The notes under the pieces: model-generated
What the model was told of the DNA's origin: nothing
Seen by the model: only the letters and a program-made list of their open reading frames with translations
The model's database searches: none
Made by a program: the position numbers and the translations under genes
Shown here: positions 7,375 through 58,601 of the stretch, one piece after another
Layout of the letters: each line of letters starts with the position of its first letter
How positions within the stretch are numbered: position 1 is the first letter of the stretch
DNA from: Gordonia araii NBRC 100433
Lineage (GTDB): Bacteria; Actinomycetota; Actinomycetes; Mycobacteriales; Mycobacteriaceae
DNA: 64,000 nt
Assembly: GCF_000241265.1 (NCBI RefSeq)
Contig: NZ_BAEE01000036.1
Coordinates: forward strand, 62,001 to 126,000
Reading direction: 5' to 3'

Positions 7375-7433
7375 CGATCGCTGCGTATTGCGGCGTCAGT
7401 GCCCAGTCGATGACGACGGGTGGGGTCCTGAAC

Positions 7434-7480
7434 GGTGGTCGAGTGCCGAGGAGCGCAGCGACTCGGTGTATCGAGCCCAC
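7434..7480. repeat. Palindromic element, diverged copy 1
   Basis: Same order of bases as the element at 7570-7617, starting GGTGGTCGAGTGCCGAGGAG, but the right end is degenerate (GAGCCCAC instead of GAGACCACC). Both copies are followed by a GTGCCCACTC core, CAAGTCAG and then a GTGCCCAGTC core, so the duplication is longer than the palindrome itself. Confidence 0.75.
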
Positions 7481-7569
7481 TGCCATGGTGCCCACTCGGC
7501 GCAAGTCAGGTGCCCAGTCGGCATGGGGTGGGGTGCCCACTCGGCGATTGCTGGCAGGGGTTCTGAATT

Positions 7570-7617
7570 GGTGGTCGAGTGCCGAGGAGCGGAGCGAGTC
7601 GGTGTATCGAGACCACC
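7570..7617. repeat. 48-bp palindromic element, copy 2
   Basis: Terminal inverted repeat GGTGGTC (7570-7576) and GACCACC (7611-7617), with an inner CCGA...TCGG pairing, giving an imperfect hairpin. It resembles the REP-like palindromes scattered between genes in many actinobacterial genomes. No transposase is nearby. Confidence 0.75.
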
Positions 7618-7725
7618 GCCGGGTGCCCACTCGACGCAAGTCAGGTGCCCAGTCGGCGTGGGTGAGGTGCCCACTCGGCGTGGGTGAGGTGCCCACTCGG
7701 CGTGGGTGAGGTGCCCAGTCGGGAT

Positions 7726-9849
7726 CTAGATCTGTTGGCCGGCCAGCTCGGACCACTCGTCGAGCAGGCTGGAGTCCGTCTCGCGGATCGTCGCGCCGAG
7801 TTGCTCGGTGATGGTGGCCAGCTCCGGGTGGTCCAGCAGGGACTGCGGTAGTCCGCTGCGCAGCACGCGGTAGCAATCCGAGAGGTAGCGCAGCACGACG
7901 CCTTCGCTGCGGGCCAGACCGTGCTTGGCGATCAGCTCGTTGAAGGTCATGTCCGCTTCGAGCATCTCGCGTAGCACCGACTTGGGCGACGGGGGACTGG
8001 CCCCCACCCACGGATGGCTGCGGCGGTAGATCGAGAACGCCTCGTCGATCAGCTCCCGCAGCGGCTGCGGCCAGCTGATCTCCTCCAGCCGCGCGATGCG
8101 CTCCTCGTACTCCACGCCGTCGGCCTTGAACTCGGCCATCGCCGTGTCTCGGGCCGCCTTGCGCTGGGCGAACAGCACCGGACGCGGATCCTCCACGGTC
8201 GCTTCGACGAGTGACACGACATCCAGCGGGAAGTCGGGGCTCTCGGCGTCGAGCAGGTCGAAAGCGGCGAGCGCGAAGGCAGAGAGCGGGTTGGTGAGCG
8301 CGAAGTTGGCCGGCACGTCGACCGACAAGGCGATCGCCTTGCCGTCGGCGTCGGGTGCGGGCAGACGGGTCACGATGCCGGTGTCGAGCAGGTCCCGGTA
8401 CAGCGCGACAGTGTGGCGGATGTGCGCGAGCTGCCGCGAACGGGGTTCGTGGTTCTCCTCGAGGAGGTGGCGCAGCGCGGCGAAACAGTCGCCGGGACGC
8501 GCGATCACCTCCATCAGCATCGCGGTGGTCATGCGGAAGTGGGAGCGCAACGGCTCGTCGTCCGCGGTGGTCAACGACTCGAAGGTCTTCTCGCCCCATG
8601 ACACGAAGCCTTCGGGCGGTCGGCGCCGCACCACTTTGCGCTGCTTCTTCGGATCGTCGCCCGCTTTCGCCAACGCCCGGGCGTTCTCCACGTCGTGCTC
8701 GGGCGCCTGGGCGACGACGTAGCCGACCGAATCGAATCCGGCGCGGCCGGCGCGGCCGGCGATCTGGTGGAACTCCCGTGCCCGCAGGCGCCGGACCCGC
8801 CGGCCGTCGTATTTGCTCAGCGCGGCGAACAGCACGGTCCGAATTGGCACGTTGATCCCCACGCCGAGCGTGTCGGTGCCCGCGACCACCTGCAACAGCC
8901 GCTGCTGGGCCAGGCGTTCGACGAGGCGTCGGTAGCGCGGCAGCATTCCGGCATGGTGCACACCGATGCCGGCGCGCAGAAGTTTGGAGAGCGTCTTGCC
9001 GAAACCGGTGCCGAAGCGGAAGTCGCCGATGGCGTCGGCGATCGCGGCTTTCGTCGCCTTGTCCGCGACCTTCGCGCTCAACAACGCCTGTGCTCGCTCG
9101 ACCGCCGCGGCCTGGGTGAAGTGGACGACGTAGACCGGTGCCCGCCCGGCGTCGACCAGGTTCTCGATCGTCTCGTGAATCGGGGTGAGCGTGTACTCGA
9201 ACTCCAACGGGACCGGCCGGACCGCGTCGGTCACGGCGGCGACGTCGCGGCCCGTCCGGGCGCGCAGGTCGTCGACGAAGAAGCCGACGTCGCCCAGCGT
9301 CGCCGACATGAGCAGGAACTGCGTGTCGGGCAGTTCGACGAGCGGCACCTGCCACGCCCATCCCCGGTCGGGGTCGCCGTAGTAGTGGAATTCGTCGGCG
9401 ACGAGGAGGCCGATGTCGGCCCCCGGCCCGTCGCGGAGGGCGACGTTGGCGACGACCTCGGCGGTCGCGCAGATGATCGGCGCTTCCGGGTTGACCGTCG
9501 CATCGCCGGTCGCGAGGCCGACCTCGTCGGCGCCGAAAGCCTCGCAGAGGGCGAAGAACTTCTCACTGACCAGCGCTTTGATCGGTGCCGTGTAGTAGGC
9601 GCGCTGGCCACGCGCCCGGGCGAAGGCGATCGCGCCGGTCGCGACGAGGGATTTGCCGGAGCCGGTCGGGGTCGCCAGGATGACGTGGCTCCCCGAGGTC
9701 AGCTCCAGCAAAGCCTCGGCCTGGTGCGAATAAAGGTCCAGCCCGCTACTGCGCGCCCACTCCTCGAACTCGTCGTAGGCGAGTGCTTCATCCGCGCTGA
9801 CCCGCAGGACGCTGGTGTCGGTGGATTCGGTGCCGAGCGGATCGCTCAC
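7726..9849 (-). CDS. DEAD/DEAH-box helicase with DUF3516 C-terminal region
   Basis: Ski2-like superfamily 2 helicase, 707 residues from a GTG that overlaps the stop of the upstream PAC2 gene. Walker A is ATPTGSGKS at residues 59-67, the Walker B/DExH box DEFH at 152-155, motif III is SATLG, and motif VI is QIAGRAGRAGF. The region after about residue 420 matches the uncharacterised DUF3516 extension. From memory, family members are longer (about 830-860 residues), so the C-terminus may be short; the stop directly abuts repeat array A. Probably acts on RNA or DNA structures. Co-transcribed with the PAC2 gene. Confidence 0.85.
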   Translation of the reverse strand: MSDPLGTESTDTSVLRVSADEALAYDEFEEWARSSGLDLYSHQAEALLELTSGSHVILATPTGSGKSLVATGAIAFARARGQRAYYTAPIKALVSEKFFALCEAFGADEVGLATGDATVNPEAPIICATAEVVANVALRDGPGADIGLLVADEFHYYGDPDRGWAWQVPLVELPDTQFLLMSATLGDVGFFVDDLRARTGRDVAAVTDAVRPVPLEFEYTLTPIHETIENLVDAGRAPVYVVHFTQAAAVERAQALLSAKVADKATKAAIADAIGDFRFGTGFGKTLSKLLRAGIGVHHAGMLPRYRRLVERLAQQRLLQVVAGTDTLGVGINVPIRTVLFAALSKYDGRRVRRLRAREFHQIAGRAGRAGFDSVGYVVAQAPEHDVENARALAKAGDDPKKQRKVVRRRPPEGFVSWGEKTFESLTTADDEPLRSHFRMTTAMLMEVIARPGDCFAALRHLLEENHEPRSRQLAHIRHTVALYRDLLDTGIVTRLPAPDADGKAIALSVDVPANFALTNPLSAFALAAFDLLDAESPDFPLDVVSLVEATVEDPRPVLFAQRKAARDTAMAEFKADGVEYEERIARLEEISWPQPLRELIDEAFSIYRRSHPWVGASPPSPKSVLREMLEADMTFNELIAKHGLARSEGVVLRYLSDCYRVLRSGLPQSLLDHPELATITEQLGATIRETDSSLLDEWSELAGQQI

Positions 9850-10865
9850 GCGGGAGACGGTCCGTCGGGACCCGTCTCGTCCGCGTCGGGAGCCCCGTCG
9901 TCGCCGACCTCGTCCTCGGTCGCGAGTGCCTGCTCGGCGAGGTAGCGCTGGAACTCGTCGCCGAGTTCGTCAGCGCTGGGCAGCGGCTCGTCGGCGGCCA
10001 GCAGCGAAGCCTGCTGTTCGGCGGCTTCGGTGTAGGAGTCGTACTGCGATTCCAGGGCCGCGACCACCGAGGCGACCTCGCCGTTGTTGGCGAGTTCGTT
10101 GTCGATCTGGACGCGCAGCGCGTCCGCGGCGCTCTCCAGCGCCTTGGTGGGCAGGTCGAGTCCGGTGAGTGTTCCCAGGCTGGTCAGCAGCCGTGCCGAC
10201 GCGGCCGGGTAGGCCGACTGCGACAGGTAGTGGGGAACGTGCACCGAGATTCCCGAGGTGCGGTAGCCGTGCTCGGACATGCGGAGCTCTAGCATCATCG
10301 ACGCGCTGCCCGGCAGCTTCATCGGCGAGCCCCAGCGCGGCATGTCGCCGAGGAATTCGACGTCGCTTCCGTGCGCGGTGATCGTCGACGGCCGGGTGTG
10401 GGGCACCGCCATCGGGATGGCGTTGAGACCGACGACGTCGCTGACGCCGAACCGATCGGACAGCCCACGGACCGCGGCGGTGAACTGTTCCCAGCGAAGA
10501 TCGGGCTCGGAGCCCGACAGCAGCAGGAACGGCTCGCCGGCATTGTCGCGGATCGCGTGGACGGTCAGCGCGGGCATCTCGACGCCGGTGAACGCCTGGC
10601 CGGAGAAATCCATGACCGGCCGGCGCGAGCGGTAGTCGATGAGTTCGTCGGTGTGGAAGGTCGCCACCAACTCGGAGTCGAGGCTGTCGCGCAGGTGACG
10701 CGCGGCGAGTGCGACGGCGTGGCCGGCGTCGGCGAAGCCGTCGAGGGCGTGGACGAGTACAGGACCAGCGCCGGTGCTCTTGGACACCTGGGGCGCCGGG
10801 AACTCCAGCTCGTACAGCGAGCTGTGCTCGGCGGGCTGGCCGTGCTCGTCGGGCTGGAAGGCCAT
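9846..10865 (-). CDS. PAC2 (proteasome assembly chaperone 2) family protein, first copy
   Basis: 339 residues from the ATG at 10865, which has AAGGAGG 6 nt upstream; an in-frame GTG at 10964 would add 33 unconserved residues. It has the PAC2 fold seen in archaeal and eukaryotic proteasome assembly chaperones: LVHALDGFADAGHA near residue 35, LLLSGSEPDLRWEQF in the middle, and an acidic tail from about residue 300. Actinobacterial members have no settled biochemical role; from memory it corresponds to M. tuberculosis Rv2714. Overlaps the next gene by 4 bp. A second PAC2 gene lies at 34024-34902. Confidence 0.85.
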   Translation of the reverse strand: MAFQPDEHGQPAEHSSLYELEFPAPQVSKSTGAGPVLVHALDGFADAGHAVALAARHLRDSLDSELVATFHTDELIDYRSRRPVMDFSGQAFTGVEMPALTVHAIRDNAGEPFLLLSGSEPDLRWEQFTAAVRGLSDRFGVSDVVGLNAIPMAVPHTRPSTITAHGSDVEFLGDMPRWGSPMKLPGSASMMLELRMSEHGYRTSGISVHVPHYLSQSAYPAASARLLTSLGTLTGLDLPTKALESAADALRVQIDNELANNGEVASVVAALESQYDSYTEAAEQQASLLAADEPLPSADELGDEFQRYLAEQALATEDEVGDDGAPDADETGPDGPSPA

Positions 10866-10972
10866 TGATCCTCCTTCAAGGGGTAAGTCAATTGTCCCAG
10901 ACGCGGGACTCGGATCGCTATCGGATATAACCCCGGGCGGCAAGCTGGCATTCCCACCGGTCACCTGGCACA

Positions 10973-11728
10973 GTGAAGGGTGTGATTGGTGTGACTGCAG
11001 TGACTCGACGGCGGTTCCGTGGGCCGTCGGGCGTCACCGCGGCGACATCCGTCTCCCGAACCGGGAAATGGATGTCGTCGCTCGCGGTCATGGCGCTGGC
11101 GGCGATCACCATGAGCGCGTGCGCCATCGACGGTGATCCGCATGATTCGCTCGTTCACCGCAGCGTCGATCCGGCGGCCTTCCCCGTCGAACAGGGCACC
11201 GATGTGACACCGGTTCCGCCCGGGCAGCTAACCGCCATCGTCGGGGACATCACGGGACACCCGGTGGGCGCGCAGATCGTTCCGCCGGACTGCGCGCCCC
11301 AACAGATCTCCCCGGCACCGACGTCGACCGTGGTGCAGACCGGGTTCGGGCGGCCACCGGCGCCGGGGGCGCCGCCACCCGCCTACACGACGGTGATCAC
11401 CCGCACGGGCGACTCGCTCGACGACGTCGCGGCGACCGTCGGGAGATGCGCCGAGTACCGGCGTTCGGCCGGGGTCGAGGTGCTCGTCACCCAGCGCGTC
11501 CTGGCGCAGGTGCCGTCGGTCCGGCGCGCCACCACCGTCGGCTACAGCCGAACCGAAGCCACGCCGGGCGCCGGGCAGCCGGTGACGACGACCCTGCTGG
11601 TGGCCCAGCGCGGGAACGTTCGCGTGTACGCGACGCGACGCGCCGTCGGTGCCGACCAGGTCGGCCGGGAAGCCGACTCCGCGCTGATCAGACTGTTCGA
11701 GGCCGCCACGGCGGCCGGCTTGCGCTGA
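10973..11728 (+). CDS. Putative lipoprotein of unknown function
   Basis: Up to 251 residues. A hydrophobic segment (MSSLAVMALAAITMSAC) ends in a lipobox whose cysteine is C50 with the GTG start used here, so lipidation and anchoring outside the membrane are predicted. The start is uncertain, because several in-frame GTG codons (10973 to 11011) give plausible N-regions. The mature part has a Pro/Ala/Gly-rich stretch near residues 120-135 and two further cysteines, in VPPDCAPQ and VGRCAEY. I do not recognise a family with certainty. It is followed 54 bp later by the DUF4192 gene. Confidence 0.7.
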   Translation: MKGVIGVTAVTRRRFRGPSGVTAATSVSRTGKWMSSLAVMALAAITMSACAIDGDPHDSLVHRSVDPAAFPVEQGTDVTPVPPGQLTAIVGDITGHPVGAQIVPPDCAPQQISPAPTSTVVQTGFGRPPAPGAPPPAYTTVITRTGDSLDDVAATVGRCAEYRRSAGVEVLVTQRVLAQVPSVRRATTVGYSRTEATPGAGQPVTTTLLVAQRGNVRVYATRRAVGADQVGREADSALIRLFEAATAAGLR

Positions 11729-11782
11729 GCTCATCGCGGCGGCGGGCGGAACCGGCTGGGCCTTCGCTGCGTCTCAGTAGGC

Positions 11783-12904
11783 ATGACGAACAGCTTGCCG
11801 ACCTTTTCCCTCGACACCTCCACACTGCTGACCGCGATCCCGGGACTGCTGGGATTCCTTCCGGAGCGCTCCTTGGTGGTGATCGCCTTCGACGCCGACG
11901 CGTCCATCGTCGTCACCGCACGTCACGACCTTCTGATCGGCGATGACGGCGAGCCGACGACGCCGATGCGCGAGACAGTCGCCGACATCGCCGATGTCTG
12001 CGCGCGTGGGGACGCGGTGGTCGCGGCGGTGGCCGTGGTCGACGACCGATTCGCCTTGTCGTCGCCCGTCTACCGGCGGCTGTGCGCGGACGCCGACGAC
12101 GCACTGGTCGCGGCCGGCGTCCCGGGTGGGGTGCGCGCGGGCTTCGTGATCGAGCGGTTCGCGGCCGGACGGCCCTGGTACACGTGCTGGTGGTTGCTCG
12201 AGGGGCGGGGCCCGTCCGGCGCCGATGCGGACGTGCCGGAGATGCTCGGAATCGACGACCCCGGTTTCGGCTGCGGCCTACTCGGGGATCCGCAGGCGTC
12301 GCCGATCGCGCTCGAGCGGTCGCTGCACACCGGGCGGGTGGTGATGGCGAGCCGAAGCGAGCTGGCGGCGTCCCTCGCACCCACCGCGCACTGCACCGAC
12401 GACGCCTGCCGGGGTAAGCCCCGACGCCCCCGGCCGACCACGACGGCCGCCGGCGAAGCGAAGCTCCTGCGCGGGGCGCTGACATTGCTGACCGGTTCTC
12501 GGCCGCCGGAGATGACCTGTGCCAATGTGCGCCTGCTCAGCCGTGCGGTCACCACTCTCGGCGTCCGGGACGCCTTGCTCGCCCTCGGCGCCGGGGAGAA
12601 CCGGTTCGTCGCCGAATCGGCGTGGCGCGAACTGGCGCGGCGCGGTCGCGGGGAGATCAGGGCCAGTGCGGCGACCATGCTCGCGCACCTGTACTACCTG
12701 TGCGGGGAAGGGGCTTATGCGGGTGTCGCCATCGATACCGCGCTTGCGGCGTGCCCGACGTGGCACCTGGCGCGGCTGTTGAACACCGCGTTGGCAGGCG
12801 GGGTCCACCCGGCACTGCTGTGGGATGTCCTCACCGAGTCATACTCGGCGGCACAGGGATTGGGCGTCGTACTGCCGCCGGCCACCATGGTCCGGCCCGG
12901 CTGA
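11783..12904 (+). CDS. DUF4192 domain-containing protein
   Basis: 373 residues. The N-terminus (LLTAIPGLLGFLPERSLVVI) is the hallmark of DUF4192, an actinobacterial family of unknown function often found near ideR/sigB. The C-terminal part (residues about 230-370) contains repeats of Ala-rich helices (REIRASAATMLAHLYYLCG) that resemble TPR-like folds. It has no signal peptide or membrane segment. Convergent with ideR, with only 10 bp between stops. Confidence 0.85.
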   Translation: MTNSLPTFSLDTSTLLTAIPGLLGFLPERSLVVIAFDADASIVVTARHDLLIGDDGEPTTPMRETVADIADVCARGDAVVAAVAVVDDRFALSSPVYRRLCADADDALVAAGVPGGVRAGFVIERFAAGRPWYTCWWLLEGRGPSGADADVPEMLGIDDPGFGCGLLGDPQASPIALERSLHTGRVVMASRSELAASLAPTAHCTDDACRGKPRRPRPTTTAAGEAKLLRGALTLLTGSRPPEMTCANVRLLSRAVTTLGVRDALLALGAGENRFVAESAWRELARRGRGEIRASAATMLAHLYYLCGEGAYAGVAIDTALAACPTWHLARLLNTALAGGVHPALLWDVLTESYSAAQGLGVVLPPATMVRPG

Positions 12905-12914
12905 GCGCCGGCCC

Positions 12915-13613
12915 TCAGACGCGCTCGACGAAGATCGAGTGCGCCATCTCCTCGGAGAGTTCCAGCCCGTCGTGGCCGGGCGTCGTGACGACGAAGGTGC
13001 GCTCTTTGCCCCGACGGTCCTGACCGGTAACAGTGACTCGCGCGTTGGGGACGACGCCGACCTCGCGCAGCGTGACGATCAGCTGCTGGTCGGATTGGGC
13101 GTGTTCGGACACACGGCGCACGACGACGGCCTGCGGCTCGCCGCCGGCCAGCTCCGCCATCCGGATCGCGTTGTCGTCGACCGGCTTGGTCACCGCCCCG
13201 AGAAGATCGAGACCGGGGATCGGGTTGCCGTAGGGCGACGTCGTCGGGTTGTCGAGGACCTCGAGGATCCGGCGCTCGACGTTCTCGCTCATCACGTGTT
13301 CCCAGCGGCACGCCTCGTCATGCACCTCGTCCCACGGGAGTCCGATCACGTCGACGAGGAGCCGTTCGGCGAGCCGGTGCTTGCGCATCACGGCGATCGC
13401 CAGATCACGGCCCTTGCCGGTGAGTTCCAAGTGGCGGTCGCCCGCCACCCGGACCAGACCGTCGCGCTCCATGCGCGCCACGGTCTGGGACACCGTTGGG
13501 CCACTTTGCTCCAGCCGCTCCGCGATCCGAGCCCGCAACGGCACGATCCCCTCTTCTTCGAGGTCGTAGATCGTGCGCAGATACATCTCGGTCGTGTCAA
13601 CAAGATCGTTCAC
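12915..13613 (-). CDS. ideR: Iron-dependent regulator IdeR (DtxR family)
   Basis: 232 residues starting with GTG (VNDLVDTTEMYLRTIYDLEE), which aligns exactly to mycobacterial IdeR; the much longer open frame upstream to 13901 is an artefact. Metal ligands are all kept: site 1 H79, E83, H98; site 2 M10, C102, E105, H106. The N-terminal winged HTH spans about residues 1-73, followed by dimerisation and SH3-like domains. It is expected to repress iron uptake and activate storage genes when loaded with Fe2+. Divergent from acuC. I found no IdeR box in its own upstream region. Confidence 0.96.
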   Translation of the reverse strand: MNDLVDTTEMYLRTIYDLEEEGIVPLRARIAERLEQSGPTVSQTVARMERDGLVRVAGDRHLELTGKGRDLAIAVMRKHRLAERLLVDVIGLPWDEVHDEACRWEHVMSENVERRILEVLDNPTTSPYGNPIPGLDLLGAVTKPVDDNAIRMAELAGGEPQAVVVRRVSEHAQSDQQLIVTLREVGVVPNARVTVTGQDRRGKERTFVVTTPGHDGLELSEEMAHSIFVERV

Positions 13614-13701
13614 GTGAATCCCTGCGCCTTTCGTCACCGCCACATTACCCCGAAACGACATCCTGTCCGGCATGTGACGCGCACGGGCTAGCCTGGTCGA
13701 T

Positions 13702-14958
13702 GTGCCGGAGACGACAGCGGGTGCGGTGATCTGGAGTGAGGGCTTCCAGGCGTATCGGTGGGCGCGCGAGCACCCGATGAATCCGGTACGGCTTGCGCTG
13801 ACGATGAGCCTGGCCGGTTCGCTCGGCGTCCTCGACGGCGTCGACCCGATTCCGCCCCTCGACATCGACGACGACCTGCTCCGCGTCGTGCACACCCGCA
13901 ACTACATCGACGCGGTCCGTGAAGTGGGCGGCCCGGACGGCGGCCCGAACAAGGCGCTGTACGAACAGCTGTACGGCCTCGGCGACATGGACAACCCGGT
14001 GTTTCCCGGGATGCACGAGGCGGCCCGGATGCTGGTCGGCGGATCGGTCGCCGCCGCGAAGGCGATCGCCGACGGAAAGGTGCGGCGAGCGGTCAACATC
14101 GGCGGCGGCATGCACCACGCGATGCCGTCGCGCGCCGCCGGTTTCTGCGTCTACAACGATTGCGCCGTCGCGATCGACTGGCTCCTCGGGCATGGCTTCG
14201 ACCGCATCGCCTACATCGACGTCGACGCCCACCACGGCGACGGGGTCGAGCGGGTCTTCGCCGACGATCCGCGCGTGCTCACCGTCTCGCTGCACCAGCA
14301 CCCGGCGACGCTGTGGCCGGGCACCGGCTGGCCCACCGAGATCGGCGGCGAGGCGGCCACGGGCTCGGCCGCCAACGTCGCGCTGATGCCCGGCATCGTC
14401 GACTCGCTGTGGCTGCGGGCCTTCCACGCGATCGTCCCGTCGCTGATCGGCGAGTTCGCCCCGCAGATCATCGTCAGCCAGTGCGGAGCGGACAGTCATC
14501 GGGCCGATCCGCTGACCGATCTGTCGCTGACCGTCGACGGTCAGCGCGCGGCGATACTGGCCATGCGCGACCTCGCCGACCGCTATTGCGACGGACGCTG
14601 GCTCGCGGTCGGCGGCGGCGGCTACGGAGTCATCAACGTGGTACCACGGATCTGGACGCATCTCATCGCGGCGGCACTCGGACGCGAGGTCGACCCGGCC
14701 ACGCGCATCGGCGACGAGTGGATGCGCAGCGCACACGATCTGGCGTCGACCGTCGATCCGGCGTACACGGCCGAACCGATCGGGACGATGGGCGACGGCG
14801 GCAGCGTCGCCTTCGACCCGTGGGACGGAGACGCCGGGTCCGACCCACCGCCGGGCATCGACGAGCGAACCTTCCGGCAGACCGACCGGACTATTCTGGC
14901 CACCCGCCGCGCGGTGTTCCCGCTGCACGGCCTCGACCCGGAGGACCCGCGTGACTGA
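13702..14958 (+). CDS. acuC: AcuC-type histone deacetylase family protein
   Basis: 418-residue zinc-dependent deacetylase of the arginase/HDAC fold. Active-site HH at 138-139 (GGGMHHAM); zinc ligands D175 and H177 (YIDVDAHHGDGV) and D264 (QCGADSH). AcuC enzymes remove acetyl groups from lysines, notably from acyl-CoA synthetases. The start is GTG at 13702. The last 8 bp overlap the GNAT/ligase fusion gene, so the two are translationally coupled, a setting that suggests reversible protein acylation. Confidence 0.92.
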   Translation: MPETTAGAVIWSEGFQAYRWAREHPMNPVRLALTMSLAGSLGVLDGVDPIPPLDIDDDLLRVVHTRNYIDAVREVGGPDGGPNKALYEQLYGLGDMDNPVFPGMHEAARMLVGGSVAAAKAIADGKVRRAVNIGGGMHHAMPSRAAGFCVYNDCAVAIDWLLGHGFDRIAYIDVDAHHGDGVERVFADDPRVLTVSLHQHPATLWPGTGWPTEIGGEAATGSAANVALMPGIVDSLWLRAFHAIVPSLIGEFAPQIIVSQCGADSHRADPLTDLSLTVDGQRAAILAMRDLADRYCDGRWLAVGGGGYGVINVVPRIWTHLIAAALGREVDPATRIGDEWMRSAHDLASTVDPAYTAEPIGTMGDGGSVAFDPWDGDAGSDPPPGIDERTFRQTDRTILATRRAVFPLHGLDPEDPRD

Positions 14959-17695: not shown

Positions 17696-17707
17696 AGCCG
17701 TTGCCGG

Positions 17708-18673
<966 letters not shown>

Positions 18674-22951: not shown

Positions 22952-23031
22952 CGCCGAGTGGGCACCTCAACCACGCCGAGTGGGCACCTCAACCACGCCG
23001 AGTGGGCACCTCAACCACGCCGAGTGGGCAC
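22952..23031. repeat. 22-bp hairpin-unit array B
   Basis: Four copies of CGCCGAGTGGGCAC start at 22952, 22974, 22996 and 23018, a 22-bp period, in the orientation opposite to arrays A and C. The spacer CTCAACCA places CCAC before GCCGA and GTGG after it, so each unit can form a hairpin. The array ends 12 bp before the sigA stop codon. Confidence 0.9.
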
Positions 23032-23043
23032 CCAGGTCATTGC

Positions 23044-24570
23044 CTAGTCGAGGTAGTCGCGAAGTACCTGGGAGCGGGACGGGTGGCGCAGCTTGCTCAT
23101 CGTCTTCGACTCGATCTGGCGGATGCGCTCACGGGTCACGCCGTAGACCTGCCCGATCTCGTCGAGCGTGCGCGGCTGACCGTCGGTGAGGCCGAAGCGG
23201 AGTCGGACGACACCGGCCTCGCGCTCCGACAAGGTCTCCAGTACCGACTGCAGCTGGTCCTGCAGCAACGTGAAGCTGACCGCGTCGACCGCGACGATGG
23301 CTTCGGAGTCTTCGATGAAATCGCCGAGCTGGCTGTCGCCCTCGTCGCCGATTGTCTGGTCCAACGAAATCGGCTCACGCGCGTACTGCTGGATCTCCAG
23401 CACCTTCTCCGGCGTGATATCCATCTCCTTGGCCAACTCCTCCGGCGTCGGCTCGCGGCCGAGGTCCTGCAGGAGTTCGCGCTGGATGCGACCGAGCTTG
23501 TTGATCACCTCGACCATGTGGACCGGGATGCGGATCGTGCGGGCCTGATCGGCCATCGCGCGGGTGATGGCCTGCCGGATCCACCAGGTGGCGTATGTGG
23601 AGAACTTGTAGCCCTTGGTGTAGTCGAATTTCTCGACCGCGCGGATCAGGCCGAGGTTGCCTTCTTGGATCAGGTCGAGGAAGGCCATGCCGCGACCGGT
23701 GTAGCGCTTGGCCAGCGACACCACCAGTCGCAAGTTCGCCTCGAGGAGATGGTTCTTCGCCTTGGTGCCGTCGTAGGCAACCTCGCGCAATGCCCGGCGC
23801 TGGGCCATCGGCACTTTCTCGCCCGAGGCGTGCAGCCGGGTCAGCAGTTCCGCGGCGTAGAGACCGGCTTCGATTCGCTTGGCGAGCGCGACCTCTTCCT
23901 CCGCGTTGAGCAGCGCGACCTTGCCGATCTGCTTGAGGTAGGCGCGGACCGAGTCCGCCGACGCCGTCAGCTCGGCGTCTTTGCGGGCCTGGCGCAGCTG
24001 CTCGGATTCTTCCTCGTCCCATACGAAGTCGCCGGACTCCTTGGCGTCCTTCTCGTCGCTCTTGGCGTCCTTCTTCGCGTCGGCGGGTTCCTCGGCTTCG
24101 TCGGCCTCGGCGAGATCGACCTCGACGTCGTTGAGATCGACCTCGTCGTCGGAGATGTCCTCGATCGAGGTTGGGCCGTCTTCCAGCTCCGTCTCGTCAG
24201 CCGGCGTCTGCGCGTCCTCGGGCTTCGTCGCACCCTTCTTGGCGGGCGCTGCCTTCTTCGCCGCGGCTTTCTTGGCGGGCGCTGCCTTCTTGGCCGGGGC
24301 CGCCTTCTTTGCCGCGGCCTTCTTGGCGGGCGCTGCCTTTTTAGCCGGGGCCGCCTTCTTCGCGGCGGCCTTCTTGGCGGGCGCTGCCTTCTTCGCCGCG
24401 GCAGCCTTCGTGGTCTTGCTCTCGGCGTCGTCGGCGCTCGTCGCCGTGGCTGCCTTCTTCACCGACTTGGTGGCACGTGCGGTCAGTTTCTTGGCCGTGT
24501 CCGCTGCCTTGCTGGCCGCGGTCTTCTTGGCCGGGGCGGAATTGCGCGCGGAGGTTTTAGTGGCAGCCAC
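23044..24570 (-). CDS. sigA: Principal RNA polymerase sigma factor SigA
   Basis: 508 residues from GTG at 24570 ([12 protein letters not shown]), with AAAGG 7 nt upstream, the same start as M. tuberculosis SigA. From [20 protein letters not shown] onward (about residue 185) regions 1.2 to 4.2 are nearly identical to the mycobacterial protein, including [20 protein letters not shown] and [20 protein letters not shown]. The N-terminal extension differs: residues 62-112 are three copies of a 17-residue Ala/Lys/Pro repeat, followed by an acidic stretch. Housekeeping sigma factor for growth-phase transcription. Confidence 0.97.
24235..24387 (-). repeat. Three tandem 51-bp repeats inside sigA
   Basis: They encode [17 protein letters not shown] three times (SigA residues 62-112). 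The DNA copies are very similar (GCCTTCTTGGCGGGCGCTGC recurs), so copy number may vary between strains. The composition is like the tails of actinobacterial histone-like proteins. Confidence 0.85.
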
Positions 24571-24713
24571 GGACAACCTTTCAGAATCTAACGAGGGGCC
24601 GCGTCGCGGTGCCGGGCTGCTGCCCCGTCGGCAGCGCCCTGCGGGCGTGAGCGGCGCGCATGGTGGGTCTGTTGGGTCGCGTCCGGGCTGTCTCGTCCGT
24701 CGCAACGTGTTCC

Positions 24714-48167: not shown

Positions 48168-48229
48168 CGCAGAGCCGACGGGCAGGTTTCCAGTAGGGTG
48201 GAATCCGAATTCGCGTGAATGGAGGCGGC

Positions 48230-48421
48230 ATGGCGCAGGAACAGAAACGATCCGGTGGTGGCGGCGACGACGGTGACCTCGGTCCCGACGGAGCGGCCGG
48301 TCAGGAGCGCCGCGAGAAGCTCGCCGAGGACACCGACGATCTGCTCGACGAGATCGACGACGTGTTGGAAGAGAACGCGGAGGACTTCGTGCGCGCCTAC
48401 GTGCAGAAGGGCGGCCAGTGA
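48230..48421 (+). CDS. pup: Prokaryotic ubiquitin-like protein Pup
   Basis: 63 residues from the ATG at 48230, with GGAGG 4 nt upstream; a GTG at 48215 is in frame but lacks a site. Gly/Asp-rich disordered N-terminal half, helical region [21 protein letters not shown] that binds the Arc coiled coil, and C-terminus VQKGGQ. The terminal Gln means deamidation by Dop is required before ligation. The prcB GTG overlaps its stop by 4 bp. Confidence 0.97.
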
Positions 48422-49257: not shown

Positions 49258-49259
49258 CG

Positions 49260-50039: not shown

Positions 50040-50044
50040 CCGGC

Positions 50045-51403: not shown

Positions 51404-51419
51404 CCACTAACCTGTTCGT

Positions 51420-52412
51420 GTGACGAAACGCGCGAAAGTCGAGCGACAGCTCAACCTGGTCATCTGCCTGCTGTCGACGCGTCAGTTCGTCTCCGCCGAG
51501 TACATCCGCCGCAACGTGGGCGGGTACTACGAGAACGACAGCAGCGACGAGGCGTTCTTCCGGATGTTCGAGCGGGACAAGGCCGACCTGCGCGACCTGG
51601 GCATCCCGCTGATCACCGGCCCGACATCGGGATACGGCGAGGCGGACGACGGCTATCGCATCGACCGCGAACGCTACGAGCTGCCCGATATACACCTCGA
51701 CGGCGACGAGGCCGCGGTCGTCGCCCTGGCGACCGCGCTCTGGGACAGTTCCGAGGTCGCCGCGATCGCGCAGAGCGCGGCCCTCAAACTGCGCGCGGCG
51801 GGCATCGACGTCTCCGCCGACGAGGACTGGGTGGTCAGTCCCAAATCCGCCGGCCGGGGCGCCGGCGACGAACGGGTCCTGCGCACCCTCCTGGAGGCGA
51901 GCGAGCAGCGTCGCGCGGTCGAGATGTCCTATCAGCGGCCGGGCGCCCAAGCCTCGGTGCGCCGCCTGGAGCCGTGGGGCGTCGTGACTCACCGCGGGCG
52001 CTGGTACGTCGTGGGGCACGACCTCGATCGGGAGCAACAGCGCACCTTCCGTCTCTCCCGGATCACCGAGGTGACCCCCACCGGCCGTCCGAAGGCGTTC
52101 ACCCCCGGCGTCGAGCCGGGCCGTCTGCGCGAACTGGTTGCCGAATCGGTCTATTCGGCGTTCCGGGAGAAGCGGAGCGAGGCCACGATCTGGGTCGCCG
52201 CCGACCGCGCGGCCTGGCTGCGCCGGCTCGCGTCCTCGTCGAGGCCCTCGGTGCTCGACGGCGAGCCGGGCGATGAGCTGACCGTGACCTACGACTCCAC
52301 GTCGTCGATGGTGCGCACCGTGCTGCGCGCCGGGCCCGACGCCGTGGTACTGGCCCCCGACGGGCTGCGGCACGCGGTGGTCGCGGCCCTCGACGAATTG
52401 GCGGTGCGGTGA
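51420..52412 (+). CDS. pafB: WYL-domain transcriptional regulator PafB
   Basis: 330 residues, GTG start. N-terminal winged HTH (QLNLVICLLSTRQFVSAEYI), WYL domain (VEMSYQRPGAQASVRRLEPW...GRWYVVGHDLDR) and a WCX tail. With PafC it forms the activator of LexA/RecA-independent DNA damage genes in mycobacteria. The stop codon overlaps the start of pafC. Confidence 0.93.
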   Translation: MTKRAKVERQLNLVICLLSTRQFVSAEYIRRNVGGYYENDSSDEAFFRMFERDKADLRDLGIPLITGPTSGYGEADDGYRIDRERYELPDIHLDGDEAAVVALATALWDSSEVAAIAQSAALKLRAAGIDVSADEDWVVSPKSAGRGAGDERVLRTLLEASEQRRAVEMSYQRPGAQASVRRLEPWGVVTHRGRWYVVGHDLDREQQRTFRLSRITEVTPTGRPKAFTPGVEPGRLRELVAESVYSAFREKRSEATIWVAADRAAWLRRLASSSRPSVLDGEPGDELTVTYDSTSSMVRTVLRAGPDAVVLAPDGLRHAVVAALDELAVR

Positions 52413-53449
52413 TGGCGGAAGCATCGGTCTCGCGGTTCTCGCGGCTGCTGGCGATGGTGCCGTACCTGGCGTCCCGGCAGGGGATCGCCGTGTCGGAGGC
52501 CGCCGCCGATCTGGGTATCACCACCGGACAGCTGACGAAGGACATCGAACAGCTCTTTGTCTGCGGGCAGCGGCAGAACGGCTTCGAAGACCTCATCGAC
52601 GTGCAGTACGACTCGGGTCATGTGCGGGTCCAGTTCACGGCGGGCATGGACCGGCCGTTGCGCCTGACGGGTGCCGAGGCCGCCCTGCTACAGACCGCGC
52701 TGGCGACGCTGGCCGACATTCCGGGCGTCGACGCCGACGCGACGCGTAGGGCGATCGCCAAGATCGAGGCCGCGATGGCGGTACCGGTGCGGGCGAAGAA
52801 AAAGGGCCTGCGTGCCCGGGGCGAGGAGTTGGCCGCAGCCGAGTCCGCGGCCCGCGCGCAGCGCAGCGAACCGTCGGCCGACGGGGGAGGCGCGCCGACT
52901 TCCCGTCGCCAGCGTCGCTACGACGAGGTACGGGAAGCCGTGCGTGCGCATCGGGCGCTACGGCTCCGGTACTACACACCGGCCCGCGACGCCGTGAGCG
53001 AACGGATCGTCGATCCGATCACGGTGAAACTCATCGACGGCAACGCGTATCTCCAAGCGTGGTGCCGAAGCGCCGAAGACACCCGGTTGTTCCGGTTCGA
53101 CCGGATCGAGGCGGCCGAGCAACTCGACGAACCGTCGAATCCCCCGCCCGCGGCCGCTGCTTCGGTCGGACCGGCCGGGTGGGAGGAGCAGGACCTTCTG
53201 ACCGCGGAGTTGGAGATCGCCCCGGAGCAGCTGTGGGTGACCGAGAACTACCTCGTCGACATCATCGACGACGGTTCCGGCCCGGCGCCCGACGGCGCGC
53301 CGGTGCGGGCCCGCGTGCACTACGGCTCGCAGGAGTGGCTGGTCCGTTTCGTGTCCGGCTTCGGCGGGACGATCCGGCTCGTCGGCGAACCGGAGATCTC
53401 TGCTCAGGTACACGCACGGGCGGCTGCCGCCCGGGAGCGTTATCGGTAG
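52412..53449 (+). CDS. pafC: WYL-domain transcriptional regulator PafC
   Basis: 345 residues from the ATG at 52412, which overlaps the pafB TGA by one base; GTG at 52409 is the alternative. HTH ([20 protein letters not shown]), an Ala/Arg/Glu-rich linker (about residues 120-170), WYL domain ([19 protein letters not shown]...[19 protein letters not shown]) and WCX tail. Partner of PafB. Confidence 0.93.
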
Positions 53450-53520
53450 CGCGAAGGCGCTACCGGGCCAATCGCGTAGACTTGGCGTCGAGTCAAGCCC
53501 CTTTCGGACAGGAGTTGCCC

Positions 53521-53772
53521 ATGACCGGGTGGATGCAACCGTCGCACCTCATCATCATCGCCATCATCTTCTTGCTCCTGTTCGGCGCGGGGAAGCTGCC
53601 CGCGGCCGCCCGCGGACTGGGCCAGTCGCTGCGCATCTTCAAGAGCGAGATCCGCGAGATGACCAAGGACGACGGCGATAAGGACACCGACGCCGCCGCC
53701 CAGCGCGAGCTGCCGCCGGGCGAGAAGGGCGAGGCCGCCGCGGATCCCGCGTCGGAGAAGAAGTCGGCCTAG
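53521..53772 (+). CDS. tatA: Sec-independent translocase subunit TatA
   Basis: 83 residues. One transmembrane helix ([18 protein letters not shown]), the FG-x-x-LP hinge, an amphipathic helix ([19 protein letters not shown]) and an acidic, Ala-rich tail. AGGAG lies upstream. Forms the pore of the twin-arginine translocase with TatC, encoded 12 bp downstream. Confidence 0.95.
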
Positions 53773-53784
53773 TCCGCCGCCCGC

Positions 53785-54756
53785 GTGCGCATTCCCTTCG
53801 ACCCTCGCCGCCGCCGCAGCAAGGTCAATCCCGACGGCACCATGTCGTTGGTCGACCATCTGCGCGAGCTGCGCACCCGTTTGATCATCGCGCTCATCGC
53901 GATCGCCGCCACCACGATCATCGGCTTCATCTGGTACTCGCACGGCGTCTGGCGACTCGATTCGCTTGGCGAGCTGTTGCGTGGCCCGTACTGCAGCCTC
54001 CCGGCGGACGTCCGCGCCTCGTTCTCACCCGATGGAGAGTGCCGACTACTGGCGACGGGGCCGTTCGACCAGTTCATGCTGCGCCTGCAGGTCGCGCTGA
54101 CCGCCGGCGTCGTGCTCGCCGCGCCGATCTGGTTCTACCAGCTGTGGCGGTTCATCACGCCCGCGCTGCACCGCAATGAACGTCGGTACGCCGTCGGATT
54201 CGTCACCGCGGCCAGCCTCCTCTTCGTCGCCGGCGCGGTCCTGGCCTACCTGGTCGTGTCGAAGGCGTTCGGATTCCTGCTGAGCGTCGGCAGCGACGTC
54301 CAGATCACCGCGCTGGCGGGCGATCAGTACTTCTCGTTCATGCTCAACCTGCTGATCATCTTCGGGATCAGCTTCGAGCTGCCGGTGCTGCTGATCGCGC
54401 TGAACCTCATCGGCGTGCTCAGCTACGAGCGTCTCAAGCACTGGCGTCGCGGGTTGATCTTCGCCATGTTCGTCTTCGCGGGCATCGTGACGCCCGGATC
54501 CGACCCGTTCACCATGTTGGCGCTGGCGTTCGCCCTGACGATCCTGCTGGAAGCCTCGATCCAGTTCGCCCGGTTCAACGATCGCCGCCGAGCGCGCAAG
54601 CGGGCGCGTCTGGAGGACCTCGCCGACGACGAGGCCAGCCCGCTGCCTCCGCCGGGACCGCGGCCGACGGCGGCCCCGATCGGCGCCCCGGCCGGTGTCG
54701 CGTCCGCGGATCGGGAATCGGTTCGCGATCGGGCGAACTTCGATGACATCCTGTAG
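53785..54756 (+). CDS. tatC: Sec-independent translocase subunit TatC
   Basis: 323 residues, GTG start. Six transmembrane helices; the N-terminal signature [14 protein letters not shown] binds the twin-arginine motif. Conserved [21 protein letters not shown] and [18 protein letters not shown] segments. A charged then Pro/Ala-rich tail of about 65 residues follows the last helix. helY begins 3 bp after the stop. Confidence 0.95.
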
Positions 54757-54759
54757 TCG

Positions 54760-57588
54760 ATGACGATTGGATTCACCGCCGAGGGTGCGCTCGCCGACTT
54801 CACCGGACGGCTCGCCTTCCGGCTCGACGACTTTCAGCGGCGCGCCTGCGAGGCGCTGGCCGCCGGGCACGGCGTGCTGGTATGCGCGCCGACCGGCGCG
54901 GGTAAGACCATCGTCGGGGAGTTCGCCGTCCATCTGGCGCTGGCCAGCGGGACGAAGTGCTTCTACACCACGCCCATCAAGGCGTTGAGCAACCAGAAGT
55001 TCCACGACCTCGTCGAGATTCACGGCGCCGCGAACGTCGGCTTGCTCACGGGTGACAACTCGGTCAACCCCGACGCCCCGGTGGTCGTGATGACCACCGA
55101 GGTGGTCCGCAACATGATCTACGCGGACAGCGCGGCGCTGGACGGACTGTCCTTCGTCGTGATGGACGAGGTTCATTTCCTCGCCGACCGCTTCCGGGGG
55201 GCCGTGTGGGAGGAAGTGATCCTGCACCTCGACCCGTCGGTGCGCGTCGTGAGCCTTTCGGCCACGGTGTCGAACTCGGAGGAGTTCGGAGCCTGGATCC
55301 AGACGGTGCGCGGCGACACCACCGTCATCGTCGACGAGATCCGGCCCGTGCCGTTGTGGCAGCACATGCTGGTGGGCAACCGGCTGTTCGACCTGTACGA
55401 CCCGCGGTCACTCGCCGACGGCAATCCGCGGGTGAATCCCGAACTCACCCGCTATATCGCACACCGCGACCTCACCGCCGCGACCGATCGCGGCGATCGG
55501 CGTGAGGACCGCAAGGGCCCGCGCCGAGGCCACCGCGGGCGCGGCCGGCGACCATCGGGGGACCGAGGCGGAACCCGCCCGGTGTCGCGGCCGGAGATGG
55601 TGGTCCGTCTCGATCGCGAGGGACTGCTGCCCGCGATCGATTTCATCTTCTCCCGAGCGGGCTGCGAAGGGGCGCTCGCGCAGTGTGTGCGCTCGGGGAT
55701 CAATCTGCTCGACGACGAGCAGCGGGTGGCGGCGCTGGAGATCGCCGACCGCTATCTCGCCGAGCTGTCCCCGGTCGACGCCGATGTCCTCGGAGCCGAT
55801 CAGTGGCGGCTGGGGATCAGTCGCGGGTTCGCCGCGCATCACGCCGGGCTGCTGCCGACGTTCCGGCACGCTGTCGAGGAGTTGTTCGTCCGCGGCCTCG
55901 TGCGCATGGTCTTCGCGACCGAGACGCTTGCGCTGGGCATCAACATGCCGGCCCGGTCGGTGGTCCTCGAGCGGCTGGTCAAGTACAACGGCGAGGCGCA
56001 CGTCGACCTGACTCCGGGCGAGTTCACCCAGCTGACGGGACGCGCGGGGCGGCGCGGAATCGACACGGAGGGGCACGCCGTCGTCGTGTGGTCGCCTCAG
56101 ATGCAGGTCGCCGAGGTCGCCGGGCTGGCCGGCGCGCGGACCTTCGCGCTGCGCAGTTCGTTCGCACCCGAGTACAACATGGCGGTCAATCTCATCGACC
56201 GACTCGGGCTGACCGGATCCAGCGAACTGTTGCTGCGCTCCTTCGCACAATTCCAAGCGGACCGCTCGGTCGTCGGGCGGGCGCGCAAACTCGACGGGCT
56301 GCGGCACGAACTGCGCAAGGTCGAGGGCGAGCTGTCGCGCGCGGCGGCACAGCGGGGCATCGACGACGGCGCTGACGACGGCGGCACGGGTGACCGTGAT
56401 CCGTACCGCGGATTCGTCGGCTACATGGAACTGCGGGAGGACATCCGGCGGCGCGAGCGCGAGCTGAAGTACGCGCGGCGCCACGACGCCCAGGTGGAGA
56501 TCGCCGACGAACTCGCGGCCTTGAAGCGAGGACAGATCATCGGCCTGTATGGCAATCGCCACCGCGGCGTGGCAGTGGTTGTCGAGACCGCCGAGGACAT
56601 CGTCGATCCGAAACCGATGGTGCTCGCCGAAGACGGGTGGTGCGGCCGTGTCGGCGTGCGCGATTTCCTCAACGGCCCGACCGTGCTCGGGAACATGCGG
56701 CTGGCCCGCCATATCGATCGCCGGACGGGACGGGGGCGGCGCGATCTGGCGTCGGCGCTGCGTTCCACCGGCGTCACGCTGCCCAAGGGCAAGCAGCGCA
56801 AACGCGCCGCCGCGGCCGATGACGCCGAGCTGGCCCGGCTCCGGGAGCTGTTGCGGGCGCATCCGGCGCACACCGCGGCCGACGTCGACGAGCTGACGCG
56901 GATGGCGCAGAAGCGCAACCGCCTGCTGCGCGAGGTGCGGTCGCTCGAGGCGGAGATCGCCGAGCGAACGTCGGCGCTCAGCGCGACGTTCGACAAGGTC
57001 GTGGCGGTGCTCCTCGAGCTCGGCTACCTCGCCGAGGCGAAATCGGGTGGCGGCGAGCTGGTCGTCACCGATGCTGGACTTAGGTTGCGCTCGATCTACA
57101 GCGAGAGCGACCTCTTGGTCAGCGAGTGCTTGAGAGAAGGGGCCTGGATCGGGTTGTCACCCGACGAACTGGCGGCCGTCGTCGCGAGTCTGGTGTACAC
57201 GTCTCGACGCGAATCGGGGGGTGGGACAGATCGAATGCCCGGTTCGGCGGCCCTTCGAGCAGCGCTCTCGGGCACGGCGCGGATCTGGCGCGACGTCGTC
57301 GAGGCGGAGTTGCGGCACGGCGTCACGCCGACTCGCGAGCCGGACACGGGCTTCTCGGTGGCCGCCGCGATGTGGGCGTCGGGCCGGTCGCTGGCCGAAT
57401 CCCTGATGGCGGCCGGTGAGGCCGGACAACTCCTCTCCCCGGGCGATTTCGTTCGGTGGAACCGGCAGGTGATCGACCTGCTGGACCAGATCGCCGGCTG
57501 CGCGGGACGAGACGATCCCGTCGGCCGCACCGCGATCGCGGCCATCGCGGCGATCCGGCGCGGTGTGGTCGCAGTCGAACTCGGTTGA
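54760..57588 (+). CDS. helY: Ski2-like DEVH-box helicase HelY
   Basis: 942 residues. Walker A CAPTGAGKT at 42-50, DEVH box at 136-139 (FVVMDEVHFLADR), SATVSNSEEFG motif III and QLTGRAGRRGIDTEG motif VI. A basic Arg/Gly insert (RKGPRRGHRGRGRRPSGDRG, about 250-270) sits in the linker. The C-terminal half carries the DSHCT-like domain. Probably unwinds structured RNA. Co-directional with tatC, as in mycobacteria. Confidence 0.93.
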   Translation: MTIGFTAEGALADFTGRLAFRLDDFQRRACEALAAGHGVLVCAPTGAGKTIVGEFAVHLALASGTKCFYTTPIKALSNQKFHDLVEIHGAANVGLLTGDNSVNPDAPVVVMTTEVVRNMIYADSAALDGLSFVVMDEVHFLADRFRGAVWEEVILHLDPSVRVVSLSATVSNSEEFGAWIQTVRGDTTVIVDEIRPVPLWQHMLVGNRLFDLYDPRSLADGNPRVNPELTRYIAHRDLTAATDRGDRREDRKGPRRGHRGRGRRPSGDRGGTRPVSRPEMVVRLDREGLLPAIDFIFSRAGCEGALAQCVRSGINLLDDEQRVAALEIADRYLAELSPVDADVLGADQWRLGISRGFAAHHAGLLPTFRHAVEELFVRGLVRMVFATETLALGINMPARSVVLERLVKYNGEAHVDLTPGEFTQLTGRAGRRGIDTEGHAVVVWSPQMQVAEVAGLAGARTFALRSSFAPEYNMAVNLIDRLGLTGSSELLLRSFAQFQADRSVVGRARKLDGLRHELRKVEGELSRAAAQRGIDDGADDGGTGDRDPYRGFVGYMELREDIRRRERELKYARRHDAQVEIADELAALKRGQIIGLYGNRHRGVAVVVETAEDIVDPKPMVLAEDGWCGRVGVRDFLNGPTVLGNMRLARHIDRRTGRGRRDLASALRSTGVTLPKGKQRKRAAAADDAELARLRELLRAHPAHTAADVDELTRMAQKRNRLLREVRSLEAEIAERTSALSATFDKVVAVLLELGYLAEAKSGGGELVVTDAGLRLRSIYSESDLLVSECLREGAWIGLSPDELAAVVASLVYTSRRESGGGTDRMPGSAALRAALSGTARIWRDVVEAELRHGVTPTREPDTGFSVAAAMWASGRSLAESLMAAGEAGQLLSPGDFVRWNRQVIDLLDQIAGCAGRDDPVGRTAIAAIAAIRRGVVAVELG

Positions 57589-57654
57589 CGTGAGGTAGCG
57601 TAGTGCCGTCTGCCACCGACGGTGGTGTGTGTCGTGTTGATGAGGGAGGACGCC

Positions 57655-58503
57655 ATGACCGAGCCGCAGCAGCCGGAGCCGGGTTCTGAGAACAACGAAC
57701 CAAACGAGGACGTGACCCAGTCCGTCGAGCAGCCGTCGTCCGGCACGCCGTCGCAGTCCCCTTCCGGCACCGATTCCGCACCGGCCGATGCGGCACCCGG
57801 TCAACCGTCGTCGCCGCAACAGCCGTCGCCGCAGGTTGGTCAGCCCGGTCAGCCTCAGCAGCCGGGGCCGTCGCCGTTCGCTCAGCCGGGCCAAGCGCAG
57901 CAGCCGGGGCAGCCGCCGTATACCCAGCCACAGTTCGGTCAGCCTCAGCAGCCGGGGCAGCCGCCGCAGCCCGGGCAACCTCAGTTCCCGGGTCAGCCGG
58001 GACCCCAGTTCGCTCAACCCGGTCAGCCGCCGTTCGGCCAGCAGCAACCCCAGTACCCGGTACCCCCGGGGGCTGGCGGGCCTCACACCGGTCAGTTCCA
58101 GCAGCCGGGCCAGTATCCGCAGCCGGGCCAGCCGCAGTTTGGCGGACCGGACTTCGCGGCGATGGGCACCACCGGGGGCAAGTCCAAGTCGCTCAAGCTG
58201 GCATTGATCGGCGCCGGCGGCATTCTGTTTCTCGGGGCGCTGCTCGCCTTCACCGCCTTCGTGGCACCGGGCTGGGCGCCCAAGACGCTGTCCCAGACCG
58301 GCGCTCAAGACGGCGTGAGGCAGATCCTCACCAACAGCTATCAGGTCAAGAACGTCAAGGACGTCAACTGCCCGAGCGGCCAGCGGGTCAAGCAGGGCGA
58401 ATCCTTCGACTGCGACGTGACCGTCGACGGCAGCAAGCAGAAGGTGACGGTCACTTTCGTCGACAAGAAGGGCAAGTTCGAGGTCGGGCCTCCGCGCCAG
58501 TAG
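57655..58503 (+). CDS. DUF4333 membrane protein with Gln/Pro/Gly-rich region
   Basis: 282 residues from the ATG at 57655 with GGGAGG upstream. Residues about 20-175 are low-complexity Pro/Gln/Gly repeats ([10 protein letters not shown]), probably disordered and cytoplasmic. One transmembrane helix ([21 protein letters not shown], about 181-201). The exported DUF4333 domain has two cysteines ([20 protein letters not shown]) likely to form a disulfide. From memory matches Rv2091c next to helY. Function unknown. Confidence 0.88.
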
Positions 58504-58521
58504 CGGCGACGATCGCGCACG

Positions 58522-58601
58522 GTGCCCACTCGGCGTGGGCGAGGTGCCCACTCGGCGTAGGTGAGGTGCCCATTCGGCGTAGGTGAGGTGCCCACTCGGC
58601 G
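58522..58601. repeat. 22-bp hairpin-unit array C
   Basis: Four copies of GTGCCCACTCGGCG (third copy CCATTC) at 58522, 58544, 58566 and 58588, a 22-bp period with the same orientation as array A. It lies between convergent genes; the last unit ends 21 bp before the exonuclease stop codon. Confidence 0.9.

Follow-up and report, generated by a model that had tools for sequence, protein, structure and literature searches.

Tandem repeats dispersed at the ends of genes are described here from Gordonia araii NBRC 100433 (NCBI RefSeq assembly GCF_000241265.1), starting from a stretch of 64,000 nucleotides (contig NZ_BAEE01000036.1, positions 62,001 to 126,000) that is referred to as the window. Each unit, 21 or 22 bp long and directly repeated, contains an 11-bp core, GCCCASTCGRC; its spacer varies between species. 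The arrays are best explained, with a probability of roughly 0.55, as a population resembling REPINs (repetitive extragenic palindrome (REP) doublets forming hairpins), in which non-palindromic, non-autonomous tandem arrays would be put at gene ends by a putative factor. The copy number, the position bias, the polarity of paired arrays, the differences between species at given sites, the species-specific units and periods at common sites, and the lack of a consistent hairpin signal were observed directly. To avoid confusion, G000 denotes the genome of the window, G008, G009, G014, G019, G039, G043, G053 and others denote the relatives compared with it, and loci carry numbers beginning with L.

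Three arrays in the window and the genes whose stop codons they adjoin are listed below.

7623..7724, plus strand: array A, four 22-bp units and a fifth, degenerate one, 1 bp from the helicase (DUF3516) TAG
7726..9849, minus strand: DUF3516 helicase gene, matching DUF3516/DEAD helicase models; its stop abuts array A
22952..23031, minus strand: array B, four exact units (4/4), 12 bp from the sigA TAG and upstream of the DUF7455 gene
23044..24705, minus strand: sigA, with Sigma70 regions 1.2, 2, 3 and 4; its stop adjoins array B; start codon provisional
58522..58601, plus strand: array C, four units (three exact, one with one mismatch), in a 119-bp convergent gap, 21 bp from the exonuclease TAG
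58623..59567, minus strand: 5'-3' exonuclease gene; its stop adjoins array C; start codon provisional

The units of array A at 7667 and 7689 are exact, those at 7623 and 7645 have one mismatch, and the last, at 7711, is degenerate. Array B lies between sigA and the next gene on the same strand (DUF7455), a gap that is not convergent, and the plus-strand DUF4333 gene to the left of array C has its TAG 18 bp away. The initial annotation had reported three arrays of exact 22-bp period within 1 to 21 bp of the TAG of minus-strand genes, named these genes as a DUF3516 helicase, sigA and a 5'-3' exonuclease, and described array B as inverted relative to A and C. All of these statements were borne out, the gene identities by matches to protein family models and the arrays far beyond chance: the 14-bp core matches the window 17 times with at most two mismatches, compared with 2.4 expected, and none of 100 shuffles reached 17.

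The repeat forms a family dispersed over the genome, as a count of the core there and in related genomes, the check proposed with the initial annotation, revealed. In the 3.9 Mb of G000 there are 188 copies of the exact 14-mer and none of its reversed control; positions were obtained for at least 158 of these cores. The 14-mer is present in number in three of 59 genomes of the genus (188, 97, and 78 copies), the other 56 holding 0 to 2, and among the named genomes scanned its exact tandem form was found only in Gordonia sp. UBA5067 (19 stretches; own-genome records were possibly left out). The degenerate core at periods of 20-23 bp matched 22 of 66 chosen genomes, namely 15 of 58 Gordonia and seven of eight of another genus, with 437 tandem pairs in G008, 121 in G043, 89 in G019, 58 in G009, 41 in G053, and 36 in G039; its reversed control gave 0, save 2 in G010. 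The strict 22-bp form was found in 9 of 401 genomes of the family, from 3 of 31 genera, one of which is represented by a single match. In the class-wide search, whose reversed control gave one match in about a dozen genomes, 2 of 394 genomes matched, one being G000 and the other having a single site at a 23-bp period. The distribution is patchy within Gordonia and one other genus. A second subfamily of G000, with the core GCACGGTCGRC and a period of 21 bp, forms 175 tandem pairs there and 0-7 in 14 other genomes tested. No match to Rfam was obtained in the window at gathering thresholds.

The placement of the arrays was compared with array-free gaps from the same stretches, most of which had been chosen for their arrays; genes were called by a custom script, and the Pfam check was restricted to the genes of the window. 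The 145 arrays from the examined stretches of G000, G043, and G009 lie in convergent (67), same-direction (53), or divergent gaps (11) or inside called genes (11), and 3 have no flanking gene. With the last two groups omitted, 67 of 131 arrays are in convergent gaps, compared with 76 of 589 array-free gaps, which also include 388 same-direction and 125 divergent ones (chi-square p = 2e-22). Since convergent gaps are short, nearness to a stop codon is partly forced in them, and it is the same-direction gaps that carry the argument. There, 35 of 53 arrays begin within 15 bp of the stop, where about 10 would be expected under uniform placement, and 4 of 53 are within 15 bp of the next start; the distances in this test were transcribed by hand from array tables. 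The tendency is present in gaps whose spare length is 200 bp or more (7 of 19 arrays no farther than 15 bp from the stop, null 0.94) and persists when the final 80 bp ahead of the start are excluded (22 of 30, 8.5 expected). In the stretches examined, the clustering at stop codons suggested in the initial annotation is found beyond chance, and the random placement that would have refuted a 3'-end role was not observed.

The same was observed in G008, which is another species and has a unit of 21 bp. There, 11 of 12 arrays from stretches partly seeded on plus-strand arrays only lie within 15 bp of the stop (null 2.1), and in 12 of 19 cases exactly 2 bp separate the end of the core from the stop codon. 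The second subfamily shares the tendencies of the main family in position and polarity, with a weaker stop bias (8 of 16, 2.6 expected; the three longest gaps are not significant). Beside the arrays of G008 (L172-L174, L216-L234) the stop codon is TAA in 11 of 27 cases, compared with 8 of 111 elsewhere (p = 6e-5). This excess has no equal in the other genomes, where TAG beside arrays was tallied at 29/61 vs 80/242 in G000 (p = 0.04), 9/18 vs 29/97 in G009 (p = 0.11), and 9/30 vs 60/203 in G043.

Arrays that lie close together in opposite orientation form inverted repeats, almost always of one polarity. Among such neighbours within 2.5 kb in the three-genome set, 22 pairs are '-+' and none '+-', the spacer ends pointing outward. 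Over the loci examined, the pairs within 350 bp, a set that overlaps the former, divide 22 to 1; three of these 23 pairs, including the sole exception, come from L088, where a lone core lies inside a palindrome, and without this locus the ratio is 20 to 0. The polarity is 4 to 0 in the second subfamily and 3 to 0 in G008, partly within the loci of the 350-bp set. Neighbours in the same orientation number four '--' and three '++' in the three-genome set, one '++' in G008, and two '--' in the second subfamily, and some of them are a single array split by an insert.

The sites themselves were compared where both flanking genes were present in the examined stretches; as these had mostly been chosen for arrays, the comparison gives no estimate of the true shared fraction. 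All three sites of the window differ in related genomes. The helicase gap measures 351 bp in G000, with CTAG on either side of the arrays, 21 bp in G043, and is replaced in G008 by a 4-bp CTAG overlap of the genes. The array after sigA is absent from G009, G039, G043, and G008, and other DNA is present at this place in G043 and G008; by eye, this looked like a membrane-protein reading frame in G043 (L171) and an HNH/DUF222-like remnant in G008 (L174). The exonuclease gap is array-free in G043 and holds an oppositely oriented 21-bp array in G008. Empty counterparts of array gaps of G000 were found four times in G043, twice in G008, and once in G009. At other sites arrays are common to two species. 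G000 and G043 have arrays in 12 of the same gaps, in the same orientation in 12 of 12 and often with different copy numbers; G009 and G043 have four common array gaps, three of them listed as the same in orientation; and G000 and G008 have seven, six of which agree, with both orientations present in G000 at L119. Six of the seven G000-G008 sites combine a 22-bp period in G000 with a 21-bp period in G008. Copy numbers at the same site vary as well (8, 3, and 3 units; 10 in two arrays vs 9; 7 vs 2). Concerted evolution is expected to produce such agreement in place and orientation together with a unit peculiar to each species; the alternative is repeated insertion at hot spots.

On these results, the REPIN-like population may be pictured as follows. 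The repeat would be a dispersed, mostly non-coding DNA family that behaves within a genome as a population of non-autonomous elements. New arrays would arise mainly at gene 3' ends, in the extreme case directly against the stop codon, and in either orientation; a DNA-binding enzyme, putative at present, would recognize the core and carry copies to these places. Array length would change by tandem duplication (slippage or unequal recombination), and the copies of one genome would be kept alike by gene conversion or by repeated re-insertion. Close arrays of opposite orientation would come to have their spacer ends outward. The effect on the host is probably near neutral, arrays being tolerated where nothing is disrupted.

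Several observations weigh against this picture. Neither a mobilizing enzyme nor an autonomous copy was found in the genomes examined, and a phage and plasmid search with the helicase region gave no match (in viral contigs, the 22-bp pattern had 0 matches and the 21-bp pattern 2). No consistent target-site duplication was visible by eye in 33 short convergent gaps and 23 close pairs. The core-to-stop distances in G000 and G043 spread over 1-40 bp, a junction much less clear than that of G008. Single arrays have no firm orientation relative to the nearest stop, with 29 vs 17 in same-direction gaps (n = 46, 11 of them tallied by hand; p = 0.10) and 29 vs 27 in convergent gaps. As most stretches were chosen for carrying arrays, the sharing counts have a bias, and some of the common sites could have arisen by separate insertions at one hot spot. 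The exonuclease site, with opposite arrays in G000 and G008, looks like such a case, and one G009-G043 site is also listed as opposite.

Further features of the window lie near the helicase gene and the left end.

4475..4550, plus strand: array of the related 21-bp subfamily (GGGCACGGTCGRCG core), starting 12 bp past the TAA of an aminotransferase gene
4555..4586, plus strand: intrinsic-terminator-like hairpin of 14 pairs, between the 4475-4550 array and the convergent gene; context, outside the repeat
7434..7477, strand not assigned: degenerate copy of the palindromic repeat GGTGGTCGAGTGCC...GTATCGAGACCACC, beside units of the array A family, read from the sequence
7488..7546, plus strand: three more units of the array A family at spacings of 22 and 23 bp, in the intergenic region of array A
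7570..7617, strand not assigned: second copy of the palindromic repeat, also read from the sequence, separating the 7488-7546 units from array A

Palindromes of the GGTGGTCGAGTGCC...GTATCGAGACCACC type also adjoin or interrupt arrays in G043 (L055, L056, L062, L071, L078), often just past GTGCCCA. The region of sigA that encodes the N-terminus contains at 24223-24413 a long Lys/Ala-rich coding repeat (Tandem Repeats Finder periods 18, 33, and 51 bp).

Some arrays are in coding sequence. In-frame arrays encode peptide repeats in genes of non-ribosomal peptide synthetases (L126, L138, two in L052), as is also seen in L235. The first linker of L052 contains the 22-bp form in G043, the 21-bp subfamily in G000, and no array in G008, G009, and G014; the other linker has the 22-bp form in G043 and G000, none in G008, and a 15-bp repeat in G009. 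This synthetase linker of G009 (L237) has about four copies of a 15-bp unit, apparently the 22-bp unit shortened by a deletion of 7 bp. The genes between arrays were also inspected. A cargo model, in which paired arrays bracket mobile genes, was rejected after 20 bracketed or adjoining genes had been scanned and no transposase or integrase family was met. These genes are mostly ordinary (a flavin adenine dinucleotide (FAD) enzyme, a methyltransferase, glutaredoxin, luciferase-like, TetR, pirin, and others); three of the 20 have no Pfam match, one has the toxin-type domain PF14021 TNT, and one is MTES_1575/DUF559 nuclease-like. The glutaredoxin gene and a response-regulator-like/FAD pair are bracketed by arrays in both G000 and G043. 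In G008, a nearly identical 250-bp stretch borders the arrays of L222 and L232, and its short end alone is beside the array of L227; it may resemble the start of an IS30-like transposase gene.

The strongest rival holds that the arrays are functional 3'-boundary elements, in which a protein bound to the tandem cores halts transcription, or insulates it, between adjacent and often convergent genes. The enrichment in convergent gaps and the hugging of stop codons agree with it, as does the outward polarity of pairs, which would show each approaching polymerase the same face; several species retain the core at a period of roughly two helical turns. The median length of array-free convergent gaps in these stretches is 26 bp (n = 76), so short that an array is often the sole spacer. 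On the other side, the degenerate core has no tandem match in 43 of 58 other Gordonia genomes (a search that could miss further variants of the core), the 4475-4550 array of the window is followed by a separate terminator-like hairpin, and some arrays are inside called genes (11/145) or in divergent gaps (11/131). As a full account of the arrays a boundary function is possible and rather doubtful, and it is compatible with the REPIN-like population, since selfish spread does not prevent a repeat from being put to use.

The arrays might instead be ordinary minisatellites, that is, chance short duplications at unconstrained places, grown by slippage, with no mechanism of dispersal. This would account for the copy-number differences at the same site and for the 15-bp unit of G009, which looks like a re-amplified deletion derivative. 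However, slippage alone gives neither the outward rule of pairs nor the fixed 2-bp junction of G008, and unrelated cores at different sites of one genome, apart from the two related subfamilies of G000, were not seen. The same core at scores of unlinked sites, in a species-specific form, needs copying between sites, and the minisatellite explanation is regarded as improbable.

The initial annotation had proposed that full units fold as CCCAC-TCGGC-GTGGG and that rows of such RNA hairpins act in termination or 3'-end protection. The fold is possible in two units of array A and one of array C, whereas array B offers only CCAC/GTGG. In the stretches examined it can form in 23 of 265 units of G000, 1 of 151 of G043, and 0 of 59 of G009. 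Compared with dinucleotide shuffles, the mean fold z on the two strands is -0.23 and -0.65 in G000 (58 arrays), 0.52 and -0.60 in G043 (26 arrays), 0.63 and -0.57 in G009 (15 arrays), and -1.26 and -0.95 in G008 (18 arrays), the best of the genomes folded; four folds of arrays of the window gave z from -0.99 to +0.91. A perfect stem of at least 8 bp occurs in 5 of 36 convergent array gaps of G000, 3 of 16 of G043, and 1 of 10 of G008, and these counts are unchanged when the arrays are masked. No terminator-like hairpin with a T run at array A was found in a scan of 4300-8000, and the separate hairpin after the 4475-4550 array argues that this array is not itself the terminator there. RNA hairpins as the common feature were therefore rejected by the unit counts and the folds against shuffles, protection of 3' ends by stem-loops falls with them, and the proposal is very unlikely in spite of the hairpin-capable units of G000, the position at 3' ends, and the slightly better average folding in G008.

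Because hairpin-capable units are rare and folding is little or no better than shuffled, the common element is the DNA core rather than an RNA stem-loop. Conservation within arrays was measured on sandwiched units (48 in G000, 21 in G043), a test in which the middle unit is not presupposed. Core positions were conserved at 0.90-1.00; in the spacer, G000 has two free positions (0.38, 0.54) and values of 0.81-0.98 at the others, and G043 ranges over 0.52-1.00. Protein binding to array DNA is possible. From the period of 21-22 bp, about two helical turns, we infer that a row of protein sites on one face would be suited, with the caution that tandem duplication also keeps a period.

No description of such arrays was recognized among the matches listed in the open-access literature, most subscription papers being outside its scope. 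The best-known dispersed bacterial repeats are palindromes with a known transposase family; here the arrays are non-palindromic and the domain of that family was not found. Such arrays would offer a clean natural system for gene-end insertion, for concerted evolution in bacteria, and for the boundaries of convergent genes. They resemble REPs, REPINs, and bacterial interspersed mosaic elements (BIMEs) in their many short, mostly extragenic copies (188 exact cores; 11 of 145 arrays in genes), in the inverted pairs of one polarity (22 to 0 and 22 to 1), and in species-specific sequence populations. One account states that head-to-head (HH) dimers predominate in most REP families (PMC3733652), and for REP repeats roles in protein binding and termination have been reported or suggested (PMC2817692). 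Unlike REPs, the arrays consist of non-palindromic units in head-to-tail repetition. The Y1 tyrosine transposase domain (Y1_Tnp, PF01797) was found in 0 of 24 genomes searched, while a control search matched in 5 of 14 reference genomes, and mobilization by a REP-associated tyrosine transposase (RAYT) was rejected on this ground. As the unit is non-palindromic and Y1_Tnp was not found, the arrays are called REPIN/BIME-like as a working description and not counted as members. For the CGTC-tagged REPs, PMC3733652 gives stems of 8-9 bp, loops of 4-5 bp, rare clustering, and no known dedicated transposase. They are similar in that the complementary strand of some Gordonia units begins CGTCGA and in that no mobilizing enzyme was found for the arrays. 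The Gordonia units differ in having no stem of 8-9 bp and in occurring mostly in arrays of at least two.

Mycobacterial interspersed repetitive units (MIRUs) are also interspersed repeats of related bacteria, seemingly inserted at gene boundaries, and their units are larger, about 46-101 bp. MIRUs are described as inserting at start codons with a coupled open reading frame (PMC12548453). The Gordonia arrays, in contrast, favour stops over starts (35 vs 4 of 53 within 15 bp). They differ from CRISPR (clustered regularly interspaced short palindromic repeats) arrays in that the 8-bp spacers are themselves repeated within and between arrays rather than unique, and from intrinsic terminators in having little or no excess structure. 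Compared with classical insertion sequences (IS) and miniature inverted-repeat transposable elements (MITEs), which have terminal inverted repeats and a target-site duplication, the picture is mixed: paired arrays form inverted repeats, no consistent duplication was visible beside arrays by eye, and at the helicase site CTAG is present on both sides. The foldback (FB) elements of animals have inverted arms made of short tandem direct repeats in variable number. The Gordonia arrays are prokaryotic, many are single, and target-site duplication was not seen by eye; paired arrays, however, are likewise inverted arms of short tandem direct repeats. Tentatively, and as a less likely proposal than the REPIN-like population in general, the arrays may be a bacterial counterpart of foldback elements, forming the ends of a non-autonomous mobile element whose putative enzyme would target the bases just past the stop codon, with genome-wide homogenization giving each species its own version and period of 21 or 22 bp.

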